The notes under the pieces were generated by a model, which did no database searches, was not told the DNA's origin, and was given only the letters and a program-made list of their open reading frames with translations. The translations under genes were made by a program, and so were the position numbers. This document shows, one piece after another, positions 3,201-27,643 of a stretch of 34,428 nt of DNA. Source of the DNA: Verrucomicrobiota bacterium (GTDB lineage: Bacteria; Verrucomicrobiota; Verrucomicrobiia; Limisphaerales; SIBE01); the NCBI GenBank assembly GCA_016209525.1, contig JACQWK010000626.1, positions 1-34,428 on the forward strand, in the 5' to 3' direction. How positions within the stretch are numbered: position 1 is the first letter of the stretch; the number at the start of each line of letters is the position of its first letter.

Positions 3201-4783
3201 GCCCACCCGCTTCCCCCTCCGAGGGAGGGGAGCCACGCACCGCGCAGCCGACAAAAGGTCCCCTCCCGGGAGGGGCAGGGGTGGGCCAGCTCAAAGAGAA
3301 CGGCTCTTACCACCACGAAGCCGAGTGGTGCGAAAATATTCCCCATCCCGTCGAGCAAAGCCGCGGGCAGACAGTCAGCGGCGATACCTACAGCCCAGGC
3401 TGGTTTGAATTGCCTTTGGCGAAGGGCGAGAATCTCATATTGGTGGCGACCGCCGACTCCGCCGAGCCCGACGCCAACGAAGTCAACCAATTCGCGGCCA
3501 ACTGCCAGGCCAAACTTGAGTCTGCGCTCGCCCTGGCGAGTATCCAAGCGAAAGACGAATTTGGGAGGCAACTCGTGCGCGCGGCGCATGCGTTCGTCGT
3601 CCGCCGCGGCTCCGGCAAAACCGTGATCGCCGGTTATCCCTGGTTCCTAGATTGGGGCCGCGACTCCTTGATTTGTGCGCGCGGCTTGCTGGCCGCCGGA
3701 ATGCGCGAGGACGTCAAGCAGTTGTTGGTTACGTTTGGGAGATTCGAGGCAAACGGCACGCTGCCGAACAGCATTCACGGCGAGGACGCGTCGAATCGGG
3801 ATACGTCCGACGCTCCGCTGTGGTTCGGTGTCGTCTGCGAGGAAGCCGCTGCGTTGTTCAATGATGCACTCTACGAAGTCGTCGTGGACAAGCGTGGCCG
3901 GACCGTGGCGGACGTGCTGGCCGGCATTGCGGCGGGGTACCTGCGAGGGACGCCCAATGGGATTCGCGTGGATCCTCAATCAGGCTTGGTTTGGAGCCCG
4001 AAACATTTCACCTGGATGGATACCAATCATCCGGCAGGCACGCCTCGGGCCGGATATCCAGTGGAAATCCAAGTGTTATGGATTCGGCTGCTCAAACAAT
4101 TGAGCCGCCTCGACGCCAAGCCGCGGAAGCAACCTTGGGGAGAGATCGCCGACCGCACTCAGGCTTCCTTCTTGAAGCATTTCTGGCTGGAGGAACGCGG
4201 CTATTTCTCCGACCTCCTGATCGCCCCCGGCGGCGAGCCGTCGGCGCGGGCTAGGGCCGACAACGCGCTTCGCAGCAATTGCCTGTTCGCAATCAGCCTT
4301 GGCCTGTCGGCCGGAGCGCAGGCGCGCCGGTGTGTCGATGCCGCCGCGCGCTATTTGGTGGTTCCCGGCGCGTTGCGTTCCCTGGCGCCATTGCCGGTGT
4401 CGCCGCCTTTGCCGGTGCATGGAAATGATGGCCGCTTGCTCAACGATCCGGATTGGCCGTATTGGGGGCGTTACGAGGGAGACGAAGACACGCGCCGCAA
4501 ACCGGCCTATCACAACGGCACCGCGTGGACGTGGACGTTTCCCACGTTCTGCGAAGCTTTGGCGCAGGCGTGGGATTTTCAGCCGCCCGCGGTTGCGGCA
4601 GCGAAAGCTTATCTGGGCAGCATGGAGCGGATTCTGCGCGAAGGCTGCCTCGGACAAATCCCTGAAATTCTCGACGGCGACGCGACGCACCAACAGCGCG
4701 GCTGCGACGCGCAAGCGTGGGGTGTCACGGAGGCCCTCCGGGTTTGGAAGCTGCTCGACGGAGCGGTTCCCAAGCCGCATTGA
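275..4783 (+). CDS. Glycogen debranching enzyme with glucanotransferase (GH13-like) and amylo-1,6-glucosidase (GH133-like) domains
   Basis: A 1502-residue cytoplasmic enzyme, with no signal peptide, predicted to remove glycogen branches: a 4-alpha-glucanotransferase domain moves short chains and an amylo-alpha-1,6-glucosidase domain hydrolyses the remaining stub. The N-terminal half has the four alpha-amylase regions: VMNHTG (H262), GFRCDAG (nucleophile D330), LLEGLGG (acid/base E359) and THDND (H417, D418). The C-terminal part has the GH133 signatures WFLDWGRDSL (D1126, D1130), NSIHGEDASNRD, GYPVEIQVLW and YHNGTAWTW (about 1412). The length matches eukaryote-type two-domain debranching enzymes (about 1500 residues), not bacterial GlgX. 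Residues about 976-1005 are low-complexity and encoded by a palindromic repeat between the domains. The ATG start has no clear Shine-Dalgarno. It is a single gene flanked by repeats. Function is confident; exact polymer preference is not. Confidence 0.93.
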   Translation: MNKPEMHPWPGERLLRFVGDTVRFTLSGPGGGPLPQGFRAVLRTNLGRASTLHEEIVYSHARELPFAGASWRDTPLKQTAREWSIDLSLVEVGFFKAKAYAVDSHGRQYWPDGPDVGISVHPNDYRTANTIYCAFTRLFGGTKKATTTQTGASDAQLGRLDKEGYAVIPPSGKLRDLLRELPHIMGTLGCRILHLLPINPVPTTFARMGRFGSPYAALDLTAIDPALVEFDRRTTGVDQFRELSYAAHVRGGRVFLDLVMNHTGWGSSLQENCPEWFLRDERGNFVNPGAWGTTWEDLVELDHRTPAPWESLAGVFLTWCRRGVDGFRCDAGYKVPVAAWRYIIARVRQEFPQTVFLLEGLGGPWETTESLLTEGGMQWAYSELFQNYSGEQVAGYLDYAARQSQRVGTYIHYSETHDNDRLAKRGRAWSLLRNRLCGLTSFSGGFGFACGVEWLAAEKIDVHGCSGLSFGSPKNLVRELGHLNELLRDHPCFFDDARVIRLSPVNSPVLALRRDSAGGADRVLILANLDVERTQTGSFGEAAYRDLGEPRHDLLGQSTLVTKPGRGGSVEFVLPPAGCYCLSAHARPVGLAGDSYRRARAAAAWGFTALSHVFAIEKTGRYPWRAVAELVNKSPDGFLAALPHLNADRAGKDLAGAFAEVAGQSQYPRVVIWTLLDRRRITVVPPGHWLLVRDEAPFRAMLSIESADFPNHTEAIRTQGGYVAFFAPRKIAADAQLKLERNAEADQRLEASIRFLASDPNELLAVAQKPKRTPGSRANLPDGRQITLEQLSRLVLLTNGIGGMARLGVDLGRIQSKYDCLLGANLHPAVPTDRHVFAKRARAWVNADGFITALDMNNLIEFSPGPPSHWRFLANAGDGRTVEIHLEAAMLENRNTTVLRFSRPVTPPKAGRDLPAQCDVRLTVRIDIEDRNFHWETKRNGGAEQHFSSHCRPLEGNAGFEFSPAPDRRLRVFVASPPASPSEGGEPRTAQPTKGPLPGGAGVGQLKENGSYHHEAEWCENIPHPVEQSRGQTVSGDTYSPGWFELPLAKGENLILVATADSAEPDANEVNQFAANCQAKLESALALASIQAKDEFGRQLVRAAHAFVVRRGSGKTVIAGYPWFLDWGRDSLICARGLLAAGMREDVKQLLVTFGRFEANGTLPNSIHGEDASNRDTSDAPLWFGVVCEEAAALFNDALYEVVVDKRGRTVADVLAGIAAGYLRGTPNGIRVDPQSGLVWSPKHFTWMDTNHPAGTPRAGYPVEIQVLWIRLLKQLSRLDAKPRKQPWGEIADRTQASFLKHFWLEERGYFSDLLIAPGGEPSARARADNALRSNCLFAISLGLSAGAQARRCVDAAARYLVVPGALRSLAPLPVSPPLPVHGNDGRLLNDPDWPYWGRYEGDEDTRRKPAYHNGTAWTWTFPTFCEALAQAWDFQPPAVAAAKAYLGSMERILREGCLGQIPEILDGDATHQQRGCDAQAWGVTEALRVWKLLDGAVPKPH
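3201..3286. repeat. Palindromic repeat inserted in frame within the debranching enzyme gene
   Basis: The arms GCCCACCC (3201-3208) and GGGTGGGC (3279-3286) are perfect inverted repeats. Inside them are CCCCCTCC/GGGAGGGG and a CCCCTCCCGGGAGGGG palindrome. The segment is translated through, without a stop, as a Pro/Gly/Ser-rich stretch (about residues 976-1005) in the linker between the two catalytic halves. It resembles non-coding GC-rich repeats more than protein-coding sequence. Confidence 0.7.
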
Positions 4784-4805
4784 CCCCTCACGGATCGGCC
4801 GCAGG

Positions 4806-5095
4806 CGAAATCCGAAGCTCGAAATCCGAAATCCGAAACAGATTCAAAATCCGAAAGCTCCAAGGCTCATTCCAATTCGCTTTCAAAATGAGACGAAGGC
4901 CCCTCACCCCGTCCCTCTCCCCATGTGATGGGGAGAGGGTGTCCGTAGGACGGGTGAGGGGCATTTCAAACAGAATGTTCATTAGATTAGTTTCATCTTG
5001 ATCGCTCATTAGAATCAAACCGGGGCGTGGCCGCACGGTTTTGAGATTCGGATTTCGGTCATTCGGGTTTGCTTCGGATTTCGGATTTTGGTCAA
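4806..5095. repeat. Foldback element with CCGAAATCC arms around a CCCCTCACCC repeat
   Basis: The gap 4784-5153 contains no gene. Its left arm has iterated CGAAATCCGAAATCCGAAA, followed by 'CTCATTCCAATTCGCTTTC'. Its right arm (about 5042-5092) has the complementary TTCGGATTTCGG iterations. Between them, at 4890-4966, lies the CCCCTCACCC...GGGTGAGGGG palindrome, containing CTCTCCCCAT/ATGGGGAGAG. Parts recur inverted at 8536-8690 and 25040-25165. Confidence 0.75.
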
Positions 5096-5153
5096 GGACG
5101 GAATTCCTCTGCGGAACGGTTCCGGAAACTCGGAAGTTATTTTTGCGCGAGTG

Positions 5154-8100
5154 CTAATCTATCTGGAGCACGCGGTAGAACCGCTCGGACCGCGCGTTCC
5201 TTGAGGTGTCCGCTTTCGAACCCGTCGTGCCGGTTGCGGTCACGGCACCCTCCAGCGAAAGCCAGTCCAATTGGCTCAGGCTGTCCTTGTATTGAACCAC
5301 GTAGGTCCGTCCAGGCACCGCGTTCCACAAGATCGTGGTTTCAGAGCCTGTCAGCGAGCGGAGAACCATCGCGCGGAAGAGCGAAGCGTCGGCGGTCGGG
5401 TTGGTTCCCGCTTTGAACTCATCGAGGTCACGCATGCCGTCTCCATCGAAGTCACCGGCGCCATCGCGAGACAAGCCGCCGAAGTGGGTCATCTCCCAAT
5501 CATCATCGATGGCGTCTTGGTCGGAATCCCTCAGGCTGAGTTGCACGACAAAAATGTCGCTCGCAGAATTGAGATCCCCTGCGCCCAAATCGCTCGCGAA
5601 GCTTTGGAAGACGACCGTCCGGCCATTGCCACTGATCAAGGGTTTGACGGAAGTCCGATCTCCGGGGCCGTCACCGGTCCGGCTTCGGCTGAGCAAGGTC
5701 GTTTGATCCCGCACGCGGTCGTAGAGGAAAACGTCGGTGAAACCATTGTCGTCGCCACGGACAAGGTCGCTGGCTCTGCTGGCAAAGACCACGTACCGTC
5801 CGTCGCCGCTGATGGACGGCCAGAACGAATCGTCATTGCCGCGGCCCGTTCGGGTCTCGCTCAAGGAGGCGTAGGTTCGGGCGCCGGAATCGCGGTGGAG
5901 CAGCGTGATTTGCCGTTTGTTGGCAGGAGTGGAGGTTAAGGTTTCGAAAGCGAGCCAACTCCCATCAGCGGTCGTCTTGGGCAGCGAAACCGCCAGGGAG
6001 ATGGGCTCCTGAACCCGTTTCGCGATGTCGTAGAAGTAGAGGTTCGTCGAGTTGTGGAGGAGGGCCAGGAAGCGGCTTTCCTCACTGAACGTTTGCGCGG
6101 GCGCAGGTCGGCGGATCGGCGGAGCCAGGGTCGATGGGGTGACGACCCACGAGGTCGATCGAGTCCTCAATTCGGTCAGGAACAACCTGAAGCCGCCCGC
6201 GGGAGGGTCCGTTGTGAGATCGGTGGCGGCGCTGTGGAACGCGAGGAACTGTCCGTCCGGACTGAGCCTAGGATTGATCGATTCGCCGTTGCCGGCTTGC
6301 CTCCCAGTGATCGCGGCCGACACCAGCGAATTCCTGCCGCCGATGGCATCGTAAAGATAAACATCGTTTGCGGCCCGCCCCGCGGCGTCATCAGGGAATT
6401 GTCTTGGGAATGTCACTCCGCTCACCAAATTGAACGCCGCGCTCTGAAACGCCACGAAGCGGCCATCGTCACTGAGGCTCGGCGAAGTGGAAGCACCATT
6501 GGCGCTCGCGTTGCCGTCGGCACTCCGGCTGACCAGAACGGTTCTGCCCGCCACCAAATCCCGCAGAAAGACATCATCAACTCGGTTCGTGTCGTTAGTC
6601 ACCAGGTTCTGGGCGGCGCTGACAAAGGCAACAAACCGCCCGTTCTTGCTCAATACCGGATCGCGGGATGCGCCATTTGCGGTCGTCGATCCGTCGAAGC
6701 TCGCCGTCACCATGAGGTTGCTGCCCGTCACCAAGTCATGGACGACGATGTCCGGCAAGCCGTTGGTGTCGTTCGGCAGAAGATTATCCGCCAGACTCGT
6801 GAACAGGACATAACGCCCCTCCGCATCGATCGCGTTTAGCGAGAGAGAACTCGGCCCATTCGCTGTTGCCGAGGGCAGCGTCGGATGGCGCTCCGAGACA
6901 AGGCTCAATGTGTCCAATGCGAGGTCTCGCACGAAAAGGTCGGTGGCGTTGTTGCGGTCTTCATTCGTAAGATCCGTCGCAAGGCTTTCAAAGGCGGCCC
7001 AGCGCGCGTCCGGAGTGATCGAGAGACCACGAACGTCCCGTCGATCCAAAGCTGTGCCAAGCGAGCTTCCGCTGAGCAGCCGCGTTGTTTTCGTCGTCAG
7101 GTCACGGATAAAAGCCTGCGAAGTTCCGGCGACGAGATTGGTGACAAGATCGGTGGCGTCGCTCAAGAAAGCCAGGTAGCTGCCGTCTGCGCTGAGCACA
7201 GGCGTATCTGAATTGCCCGCTGCCGGAACTTCGCCGCTCAAGTTTGCGCTCGCGAGGCTTGTGGCCGCTGTGGCCGCATCCCAAACGCGGATCACGCGCT
7301 GACCGGTCGCGTTGATTTTGCTTTCGAAGGCGACGAAGCGTCCGTCAGCACTGATGACCGGCCCAGACATGTCCTCGGTCCCGGCCACCACACCGACCGC
7401 ATCGCTGCTGACGAAGACCGTCGAACCCGTCTGCAGATCATAGCGGAGGAGGACCGCACCGTCACCGCTCAAAGTACCCGTCGAACTCGTGAGGACGGTC
7501 TTGAATGCCACGTAACGTCCGTCCTCGCTGATGGCCGGATTGCTGGATGAAAGCGCGCGACGCGGCTCAAGCGCAGGGAATCTGGTTCTGTCGGAGCTGA
7601 TCCAAGCGGTTTTCCCGTCAAGCATGTCCCTGACGTAAATCTCATTGAAACCATTCGTCGCGCCAGGTGCGAGGTTCGTCGCCTGGCTCGTGAAGGCGAT
7701 AAATCTTGCGTTCGGCGTGATGACCGAGCCGAAAGAAACCGCGTTTGCTGGACCGACACCGGTTGGGTCCGCGCTGACCAAGCGCGTGACGCCGGTCTGT
7801 ACGTCGCGCAGAAAAACGTCGGTGGCATTGTTCGCGTCGTTCGCCGTCAAGTTTGACGCTTCGCTCTCGAAGACTACGAATTTTCCATCCCGTGAAATCA
7901 CCGGGTTCGATGCAGCTCCGTTGGCGCTGCGAGTGCCGGCGAGATCGACGCTCACCAGGATGGTCTTGCCCGTGGCCAAGTCGCGGATGAAGACATCGCT
8001 CAGGCCATTGGAATCATTGGTCACAAGGTCGCTCGCCTCGCTCGTGAACGCCACAAACCTGCCGTCCTCAGAAATCCCGCCAAGCAAGGAGTGACCGTTG

Positions 8101-21585: not shown

Positions 21586-21951
21586 ATGCGCTTACTCAAA
21601 TTATCCATCATCACCGCGACCGTGCTCGTGCTGGCGGTCGCTCACGCGGCTGATAAGAAAGAGTCGAGGAAAGCCCACAAGGAAAAATCGGCTCAGTCCG
21701 CTACGCCTGCTGTCAACGAGGCCAAGGTTCATCTGGTGATCTCTGGAATGACCTGACCCGTCGGCTGTGTCACTAAAGTGCGGTCCGCACTCAAAATACC
21801 GGGAGTCAAGAATGCCGAAGTTGCACTGCCAGATAAGGCGGTCGTGACCGTGGAGAAGGGCAAGGTCACCACGAAGGACTTGATCGCGGCAGTGAAGAAA
21901 GCAGGCTACGGCGCTAAGGAAAGGAAGGAGAAGGTCGAAAAACTCCAGTAG
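21586..21951 (+). CDS. Periplasmic heavy-metal-associated (HMA) protein with in-frame TGA, candidate selenoprotein
   Basis: 121 codons if TGA (21754-21756, codon 57) is read through. A signal peptide (MRLLKLSIITATVLVLAVAHA) and a Lys-rich linker lead to VHLVISGMT-[TGA]-PVGCVTKV. Then follows a normal HMA tail: LKIPGVKNAEVALPDKAVVT, VTTKDLIAAVKKAGY and a charged end, closing at TAG. HMA (MerP/CopZ-like) domains bind soft metals through GMTCxxC; a CxxGC variant is common in periplasmic forms. The TGA replaces exactly the first metal-binding Cys (TGC or TGT), the remaining codons keep coding character, and a hairpin follows the TGA. Selenocysteine at that place is therefore likely. A nonsense mutation giving a 56-residue fragment is the alternative. 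No sel genes are in the window. A terminator follows. Confidence 0.72.
21757..21808 (+). promoter_or_regulatory. SECIS-like hairpin downstream of the TGA
   Basis: AGTGCG (21777-21782) and CGCACT (21786-21791) form a perfect 6-bp stem around GTC; with the last pair open the loop reads GGUCC. The E. coli fdhF SECIS apical loop is also GGUC-type. The loop starts about 25 nt after the TGA, within the range accepted for bacterial SECIS elements. A weaker lower stem can pair TGACCC at the TGA with GGAGTCA (21802-21808, one bulge), placing TGA at the hairpin base. Confidence 0.55.
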
Positions 21952-21991: not shown

Positions 21992-22020
21992 CACCCCGCC
22001 CGAAATCGGCGGGGTGTTTT
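21992..22020 (+). terminator. Intrinsic terminator after the HMA gene
   Basis: CACCCCGCC (21992-22000) pairs perfectly with GGCGGGGTG (22008-22016) across a 7-nt loop, followed by TTTT. It may also act for rpsT, which ends from the other side at 22027. Confidence 0.75.
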
Positions 22021-22381: not shown

Positions 22382-22561
22382 CAGTCTTGCCCGGCCTTAG
22401 AGCGGTCGTTTCGTAACGCAGATTTTCAATCTGCTGTAGCGCAGAATTGCATTCTGCGGACGCCTCGCATTGCCAAGCACTCCCTCAGTCTCGCACGCCC
22501 AGCCAAGTGCAACTCGGCGATACGGCAGATTGAAAATCTGCGCTACGCTGTGCAAGACTGA
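22382..22561. repeat. Four-hairpin interspersed repeat, copy 2 of 5
   Basis: It contains GCAGATTTTCAATCTGC, GCAGAATTGCATTCTGC and GCAGATTGAAAATCTGC hairpins between CGTAACGC and GCGCTACG ends. Outer arms CAGTCTTGC (22382) and GCAAGACTG (22552) are inverted. It lies between rpsT and tmk. Confidence 0.85.
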
Positions 22562-23230: not shown

Positions 23231-23280
23231 CAGTCCGTTCTTTCCAGAAAGAGTGTCTCAAAGGTCAGTTCGCCAACCTA

Positions 23281-23334
23281 GTACTGTGACAAAGAATTAT
23301 CGACACATGTCTCGAGAATTCTTTGTCACAGTAC
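23281..23334. repeat. 54-bp near-perfect palindrome
   Basis: GTACTGTGACAAAGAATT (23281-23298) is the exact reverse complement of 23317-23334. The centre (CGACACATGTCTCG) continues the symmetry, leaving only two mismatched positions per arm. It lies between tmk and the cytochrome gene in 23231-23459. Confidence 0.85.
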
Positions 23335-23336
23335 GA

Positions 23337-27138: not shown

Positions 27139-27643
27139 TCGTCATCGAGTTAGAACATTGCAGGTTACCAGCACGGCCGATCCCAAACGGGGGAACGAAA
27201 ATGGGCATGAGAAAACGGGCCTGGCCTGTCCTCTTGTACTCTGTCCCTGGATCCTGAGCAATCGTGGTCTGACCGGAAAGTTCTGTCGCCCCGGCGGGGC
27301 TGAAACGCGGGGCGGTCGGGTTTTCCCACGGCTCACGCCGTGGGCTACATTCTGGTCGCCCCTCCGGGGCTGGTTCTCGTTGAGTTGGCGCAGGCCGGGC
27401 CGGTCGTTCGTGCAACCTTGCGATGTCTTCCGCAAATTTCTTGGGCGGAAGGAGTCTCGAGAAGTCTTTCTGACGGGCCGGCAATTCCTTCCAGATCACA
27501 TCAAGGTCCGCTCGCCATTGTGCCTCGCGCGAAGCGTCGGAAGCCGTGCGCGAGGACGCCTCTTCCACTGCGCGCAGAGGGGCCCGCGAGACGAGAGTCA
27601 CGGCCGTGATGACAGAGAACCAGACGACGTATCGAGTCTGCAT
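27086..27643 (-). pseudogene. Truncated S41-peptidase-like N-terminal fragment running into a repeat
   Basis: The frame begins with a signal peptide (MQTRYVVWFSVITAVTLVSR). It continues with WRADLDVIWKELPARQKDFS and KKFAEDIARLHE, which resembles the N-terminal cap of S41 (C-terminal-processing-type) peptidases, where 'W..DLd.l...LP..Hk' is typical. From about residue 70 the sequence becomes GC-rich repeat translation (Pro/Arg-rich) and then non-coding-looking sequence, and no protease domain follows anywhere nearby. I read this as a gene cut off by a repeat insertion or deletion. Family assignment rests on about 50 residues and is tentative. It lies 2 bp downstream of the GH123-DUF4832 gene. 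Confidence 0.5.
27284..27385. repeat. GC-rich three-hairpin repeat
   Basis: CGCCCCGGCGGGGCTGAAAC, then CCCACGGC (27325-27332)/GCCGTGGG (27337-27344) with loop TCAC, then GCCCCTCCGGGGC. It forms the break point of the S41-like fragment. Confidence 0.7.

Follow-up and report, generated by a model that had tools for sequence, protein, structure and literature searches.

The consensus bSECIS consists of a small loop starting with G[G/U] on a stem of 4-16 bp, at a spacing of 16-37 nt from the UGA (PMC13188914). Selenocysteine (Sec) has been catalogued in several proteins with an HMA domain, namely the UxxU family NF041115, the family NF045683, a Sec-containing P-type ATPase, and MerP from the Global Ocean Sampling, where two predicted Sec-containing MerP sequences form one cluster (PMC2398784). 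The DNA analysed here, referred to as the window, is a stretch of 34,428 nucleotides from a Verrucomicrobiota bacterium (contig JACQWK010000626.1). It contains a gene with an in-frame TGA and, as in the type example, fdhF of E. coli, a hairpin with a small G[G/U] loop that lies in the coding sequence just past this codon. An earlier note had interpreted the hairpin as a SECIS. Its conservation in relatives carrying the TGA, the compensatory changes in its stem, and the Sec machinery encoded in the genome support this interpretation, and we estimate the probability that it is the functional SECIS of a selenoprotein gene at about 96%. The features of the locus and other elements of the window are listed in Table 1.

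Table 1. Features of the putative selenoprotein gene and other elements observed in the window
Feature	Position	Strand	Basis and remarks
CDS of a predicted exported HMA-domain selenoprotein	21586..21951	+	Translation with TGA read as U (MRLL..GMT-U-PVGC-VTKVRSAL..KLQ); ATG at 21586, TAG at 21949-21951; 121 residues with Sec57
Signal-peptide-like N-terminus MRLLKLSIITATVLVLAVAHA	21586..21651	+	Read by eye from the translation
HMA domain, ferredoxin-like beta-alpha-beta-beta-alpha-beta	21739..21909	+	Pfam, AlphaFold2, Foldseek
In-frame TGA, putative selenocysteine (U of GMT-U-PVG-C)	21754..21756	+	Shared by about 44 genomes at this position; Cys in other relatives
TGT, partner Cys of UxxxC	21766..21768	+	Cys codon invariant in 41 of 41 aligned sites
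bSECIS apical hairpin AGTGCG-GTC-CGCACT	21777..21791	+	5' arm 21777-21782, loop 21783-21785, 3' arm 21786-21791; 8-9 bp in relatives through outer pairs; sequence, comparison, covariance model
Apex N1-GUC-N2 (G-GTC-C), expected SelB contact	21782..21786	+	Apex pattern in all 41 relatives
Intrinsic terminator-like hairpin and T run	21992..22020	+	40 nt past the TAG stop; sequence, fold of -22 kcal/mol
Repeats of the type cgcagattttcaatctgctgtagcgcag..cagattgaaaatctgcgctac	22415-22555	both	Possibly a dispersed repeat
Inverted repeat AGTACTGTGACAAAGAATT..AATTCTTTGTCACAGTAC	23280-23336		Resembles a small mobile or repeat element
Acido-Lenti-1 RNA	27325-27371	+	Rfam, 47.1 bits, above gathering score

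Direct reading of the sequence bore out the perfect 6-bp stem around GTC, or alternatively 5 bp with a GGTCC loop, that the earlier note had placed 20 nt past the TGA. Counted from the TGA, the stem extends from nt 21 to nt 35, GGUC starts at nt 26, and GUC at nt 27. The distance of 25-26 nt between the UGA and the apical loop is inside the published range of 16-37 nt, as had been claimed. The hairpin is indeed located 3' of the in-frame UGA and within the coding sequence, since the frame is open to the TAG and the protein downstream is conserved; its codons encode KVRSAL in helix 1 of the HMA domain. A lower stem including the TGA, which had also been suggested, was present in the minimum free energy (MFE) fold of the element in the window but was neither conserved among the relatives nor needed. 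In some family members, an alternative weak helix competes with the hairpin.

The hairpin core alone gave -7.0 kcal/mol (z -3.2), just above the bSECIS MFE limit of -7.5 kcal/mol, and both the segment from the TGA to +37 nt (-9.1 kcal/mol) and the whole 55-nt element (-14.0 kcal/mol) were below this limit. The z-score of the 55-nt element was -0.37, no better than shuffles, and was dropped as an uninformative criterion. When synonymous codons were resampled, 5% of the draws with uniform codons and 12% of those with local usage had a stem of at least 6 bp at the same place. The window sequence by itself thus points only weakly to a hairpin beyond chance, and because the hairpin is only mildly improbable in a single sequence, the claim had to be decided by comparison.

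Homologues with a TGA were collected by protein searches among relatives, in the order of the window's genome and in the order of genome G150, and from genome contigs. These homologues, in which the in-frame TGA lies at the corresponding HMA position, came from about 44 Verrucomicrobiota genomes, of which 11 belong to the window's order and 33 to that of G150. Among the named records are Pedosphaera sp. Baikal-deep-G225, an Akkermansiaceae MAG, and a Rubritalea MAG. The TGA-bearing homologues were 64-38% identical to the window protein, and no relatives were found in viral contigs and plasmid collections. A total of 41 distinct TGA sites were examined, including pairs of sites from genes with two domains and a TGA in each; L135, whose assigned frame proved wrong, was left out of one alignment. 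The alignment of the 41 sites was gap-free, with a three-base loop at nt 27-29 past the TGA throughout. The apices were A-GUC-U (15 sites), A-GGC-U (11), G-GUC-C (9), G-GUC-U (4), G-GUU-C (1), and A-GGA-U (1), so that every site fits the published consensus N1-G[G/U]N-N2 with N1 and N2 paired as well as the bSECIS loop and stem dimensions.

Double-sided compensatory changes were observed in three of the seven stem pairs. The proportion of paired cells was 95.8%, compared with 90.7% in shuffles and at most 55% when the register was slid, and 16 double-sided cells were observed against 4.6 expected from shuffles that ignore kinship; because the sequences are related, these counts cannot be read as probabilities. 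One of the changes is between CGG-TCC (Arg-Ser) and CAG-TCT (Gln-Ser), in which the synonymous Ser change restores the closing pair (Fisher p about 0.003, computed on the first set of sites). Furthermore, in L216 and L218 a change of Val GTG to Ala GCG is accompanied by a synonymous change of the opposite Ala codon from GCA to GCG, by which pairing is restored. In the 16-site set, the four-fold degenerate third bases of the Val, Arg, and Ala stem codons were 100% identical versus 32% for all other codons; in the 41-site set, those of Val and Arg were again 100% identical and that of Ala 90%, the two exceptions being the compensated L216 and L218. The frozen third bases and the compensatory synonymous changes exclude amino-acid constraint as the cause. 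A covariance model of the hairpin scored 50.7 bits at the window site and, in a search of 11 TGA genomes, gave one strong match per genome. Weak extra matches in other genomes lacked an open TGA frame and were rejected as chance. Taken together, the comparison with relatives argues overwhelmingly for a hairpin beyond chance.

For comparison, 86 HMA relatives with Cys in the position of the TGA were used (8 CxxxC and 78 CxxC). None of the 86 had an in-register stem of at least 5 bp. On the other hand, 22 of them had some stem of at least 6 bp under a loose SECIS rule, which was therefore rejected as a criterion, and the register was regarded as the good test. The earlier note had named two outcomes that would speak against its reading, namely a hairpin equally present in the Cys relatives and a hairpin not conserved among the TGA relatives. 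Neither was observed, given the absence in register from the former and the presence with compensatory changes in all 41 aligned sites of the latter. Covariation in the Sec genes together with absence from the Cys genes is the pattern expected of a bSECIS.

The window's genome (G000) encodes the SelA, SelB, SelD, and tRNA-Sec expected alongside a bSECIS. SelB scored 318 bits, the adjoining SelA 477 bits, and SelD (L194; G000:C197:1587-2510) 366 bits, and there is one tRNA-Sec with the anticodon TCA. The selD gene itself has an in-frame TGA (SSCAG-U-ASK) followed by a hairpin, GACGCAG-GTT-CTGCGTC, with its loop at nt 34. A second SelB candidate on contig C528 was rejected as a shorter translation-factor-like match below the cut-off, and a second tRNA-Sec candidate on the same contig was rejected because it is tRNA-Ser. 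Across the order, the Rfam tRNA-Sec model RF01852 gave many matches of 53-57 bits and 85-88 nt above the gathering score, which are probably tRNA-Ser-like, and one match of this kind in the window's genome proved to be tRNA-Ser. Calls of tRNA-Sec at that cut-off are thus unsafe in this phylum, and SelB was chosen for the co-occurrence test. Within the window's order, all but one of the 11 TGA genomes had SelB (10 of 11), and the one without it is 60% complete; none of the eight Cys-form genomes had SelB over the cut-off (Fisher p about 1e-4).

These data bear on two explanations in which no Sec is inserted. If the TGA were a true stop or a recent nonsense mutation, leaving a pseudogene or a truncated peptide, the hairpin would be due to chance or to the VRSAL codons. 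UGA is a working stop in this DNA, where it ends 7 of the 14 long ORFs of the window, the 5-12% probability of the hairpin in a single sequence is not small, and 22 of the 86 Cys relatives have stems by the loose rule. However, the same TGA followed by an intact protein recurs in the genomes described above, on which account this explanation counts as already refuted; in addition, synonymous sites are frozen, synonymous changes are compensatory, and the Cys relatives are without the in-register hairpin. We regard it as very improbable. Still less probable is that UGA encodes another amino acid, because the code is reassigned or the stop is read through without Sec, and that the hairpin is a generic read-through stimulator. 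Hairpins 3' of a stop codon can stimulate read-through. Nevertheless, the homologous residue is Cys, TGA otherwise terminates ORFs of the window in the usual way, the dedicated SelA, SelB, SelD, and tRNA-Sec are present and correlated with the TGA form, and the apex pattern of SelB-type bSECIS (pattern from PMC13188914) is found in 41 of 41 sites.

Under the preferred reading as a functional SECIS, SelB with Sec-tRNA-Sec would bind the GGUC apex of the downstream hairpin when the ribosome reaches the UGA. Sec would then be inserted in place of termination, and translation would proceed through the hairpin to the TAG. The predicted protein, small and exported, would carry a Sec-Cys pair at the HMA metal site.

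The window protein matched Pfam HMA (PF00403) with an E value of 3.1e-9 and 37.5 bits, against a curated cut-off of 24.8. Its TGA occupies the first metal-ligand position of the domain. The metal loop differs from the CxxC of PF00403 in that UxxxC is one residue longer and Sec replaces the first Cys. The HMA fold is retained despite this loop: the AlphaFold2 model, in which C was modelled for U, has a confident beta-alpha-beta-beta-alpha-beta core from residues ~45 to 112, with U57 within the metal loop and Cys61 at the start of helix 1. The best solved Foldseek matches of this core were PacS (4a48), MerP (1osd), and CopA/CopZ-type domains. Several relatives have a lipoprotein-like signal peptide at the N-terminus instead, and export would place the selenolate-thiolate pair outside the cytoplasm.

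As to function, no conserved neighbour genes were seen around the relatives. A His-rich N-terminal linker in one relative and a gene for a His-rich lipoprotein close to another lean toward metal handling. We give a metal-trap role an even chance; our guess is that the protein traps a soft metal, for instance Hg(II) or Cu(I), or hands it on, and both the metal and the physiological role are part of that guess. Alternatively, the SECIS may be real and the protein a thiol/selenol redox enzyme or reductant that forms a reversible Se-S bond in UxxxC and traps no metal. Selenoproteins are mostly redox proteins (PMC13188914), and the Cys partner is invariant. This role nevertheless seems unlikely, although far less so than the two explanations above, in view of an HMA fold without a Trx-like fold, the U at a metal-ligand position, and the His-rich features mentioned.

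A second HMA selenoprotein-like gene, L047 (G000:C198:1036-1260), is present in the window's genome. It encodes GMT-U-AGC, a UxxC motif one codon shorter, and has an unrelated stem, TTGAGC-GGTC-GCTCAA. Its GGTC nevertheless starts at nt 26 past the TGA, as in the window, indicating that the position of the hairpin is tied to the UGA and not to the register of the protein. Because the MAFFT alignment of L047 follows the protein register and misplaces the hairpin, this gene was judged by its distance to the UGA. Cys paralogues of L047 were seen on C177 and elsewhere on C198 of the same genome.

Multiple TGAs were observed in some relatives. L056 (JAHDID010000005.1, about 4593-5171) has four in-frame TGAs, near 4659, 4704, 4791, and 4989, two in HMA domains and two in a Lys/Ser-rich linker past the signal peptide. 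The linker hairpins, GCCA-GTC-TGGC and AGAACCA-GTC-TGGTTCT at nt 27 and 24, have stem letters unlike those of the HMA hairpins, and the linker TGAs with their hairpins look like Sec-plus-SECIS cassettes. In L062 (116-781), L203, and L208 (Rubritalea and relatives), HMA domains occur in tandem or as neighbours, and every domain has a TGA and a SECIS to itself; L062 has a GGC loop in place of GUC where Ala replaces Ser. In Terrihalobacillus insolitus (Bacillota), L060 (8663-8992) is an HMA gene encoding GMH-U-AHGC with the hairpin GCCTCT-CGTTGA-AGAGGC; a P-type ATPase with HMA domains is encoded on the same contig, and no NCBIfam cut-off was reached. This gene suggests that UxxxC HMA selenoproteins also exist outside Verrucomicrobiota.

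An apparent nonsense codon, at which standard annotation truncates or drops the gene, thus appears to mark a selenoprotein family in about 44 genomes, in a phylum whose name is absent from a 2026 review of prokaryotic selenoproteins. As for its wider history, we tentatively propose, at slightly below even odds, an uncatalogued, Verrucomicrobiota-centred exported family that acts as an extracytoplasmic soft-metal trap with a Sec-Cys HMA site. Domain duplication and the addition of Sec-plus-SECIS cassettes would account for its spread, with L056 reaching four Sec codons that each have a SECIS, and the SECIS would have frozen the codons in helix 1 and, in part, the residues that they encode, V-(R/Q)-(S/A)-A-L. 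The family provides a clean natural data set on what SelB needs, with the apex N1-G[G/U]N-N2, a fixed spacing, and a compensated stem, and would offer a case in which the use of selenium for metal binding instead of catalysis can be tested.

As a SECIS, the hairpin is ordinary. In E. coli K-12 fdhF, GCAGGUCUGCAC is close to GUGCAGUCUGCAC of the window gene's relatives. The fdhF loop is nearer the UGA, as the earlier note had stated, and the difference, described there as slight, is 7 nt (GGUC at nt 19, compared with a loop from nt 26-27 here). Unlike fdhF, the window hairpin has no bulged U in the core stem, and its lower stem is unconserved. With regard to the protein, UxxxC, Verrucomicrobiota, and Akkermansia are absent from the 2026 review (PMC13188914; open-access literature was covered), and neither the window protein nor the relatives scanned reached the NCBIfam cut-offs. 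Within the catalogues and open-access papers searched, the exported UxxxC subfamily recurring across Verrucomicrobiota appears uncatalogued, and an earlier description is possible; judged by their description, the Global Ocean Sampling MerP sequences (PMC2398784) may be members. NF041115, the UxxU metal-binding (seleno)protein, which older lists name 'putative mercuric reductase', is likewise a stand-alone HMA protein with Sec in the metal loop but has two Sec residues in UxxU instead of UxxxC; the window protein scored 42.4 bits and the best relative 79, against a cut-off of 95. NF045683, the MerT/CopZ fusion-like heavy metal transport selenoprotein, also has an HMA domain, whereas the window protein is without the membrane MerT part (26.1 bits against a cut-off of 375). 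Finally, the predicted protein resembles metallochaperones of the MerP/CopZ/Atx1 type in its HMA fold and in its probable MerP-like periplasmic export, and differs from them in carrying UxxxC in place of the canonical CxxC.
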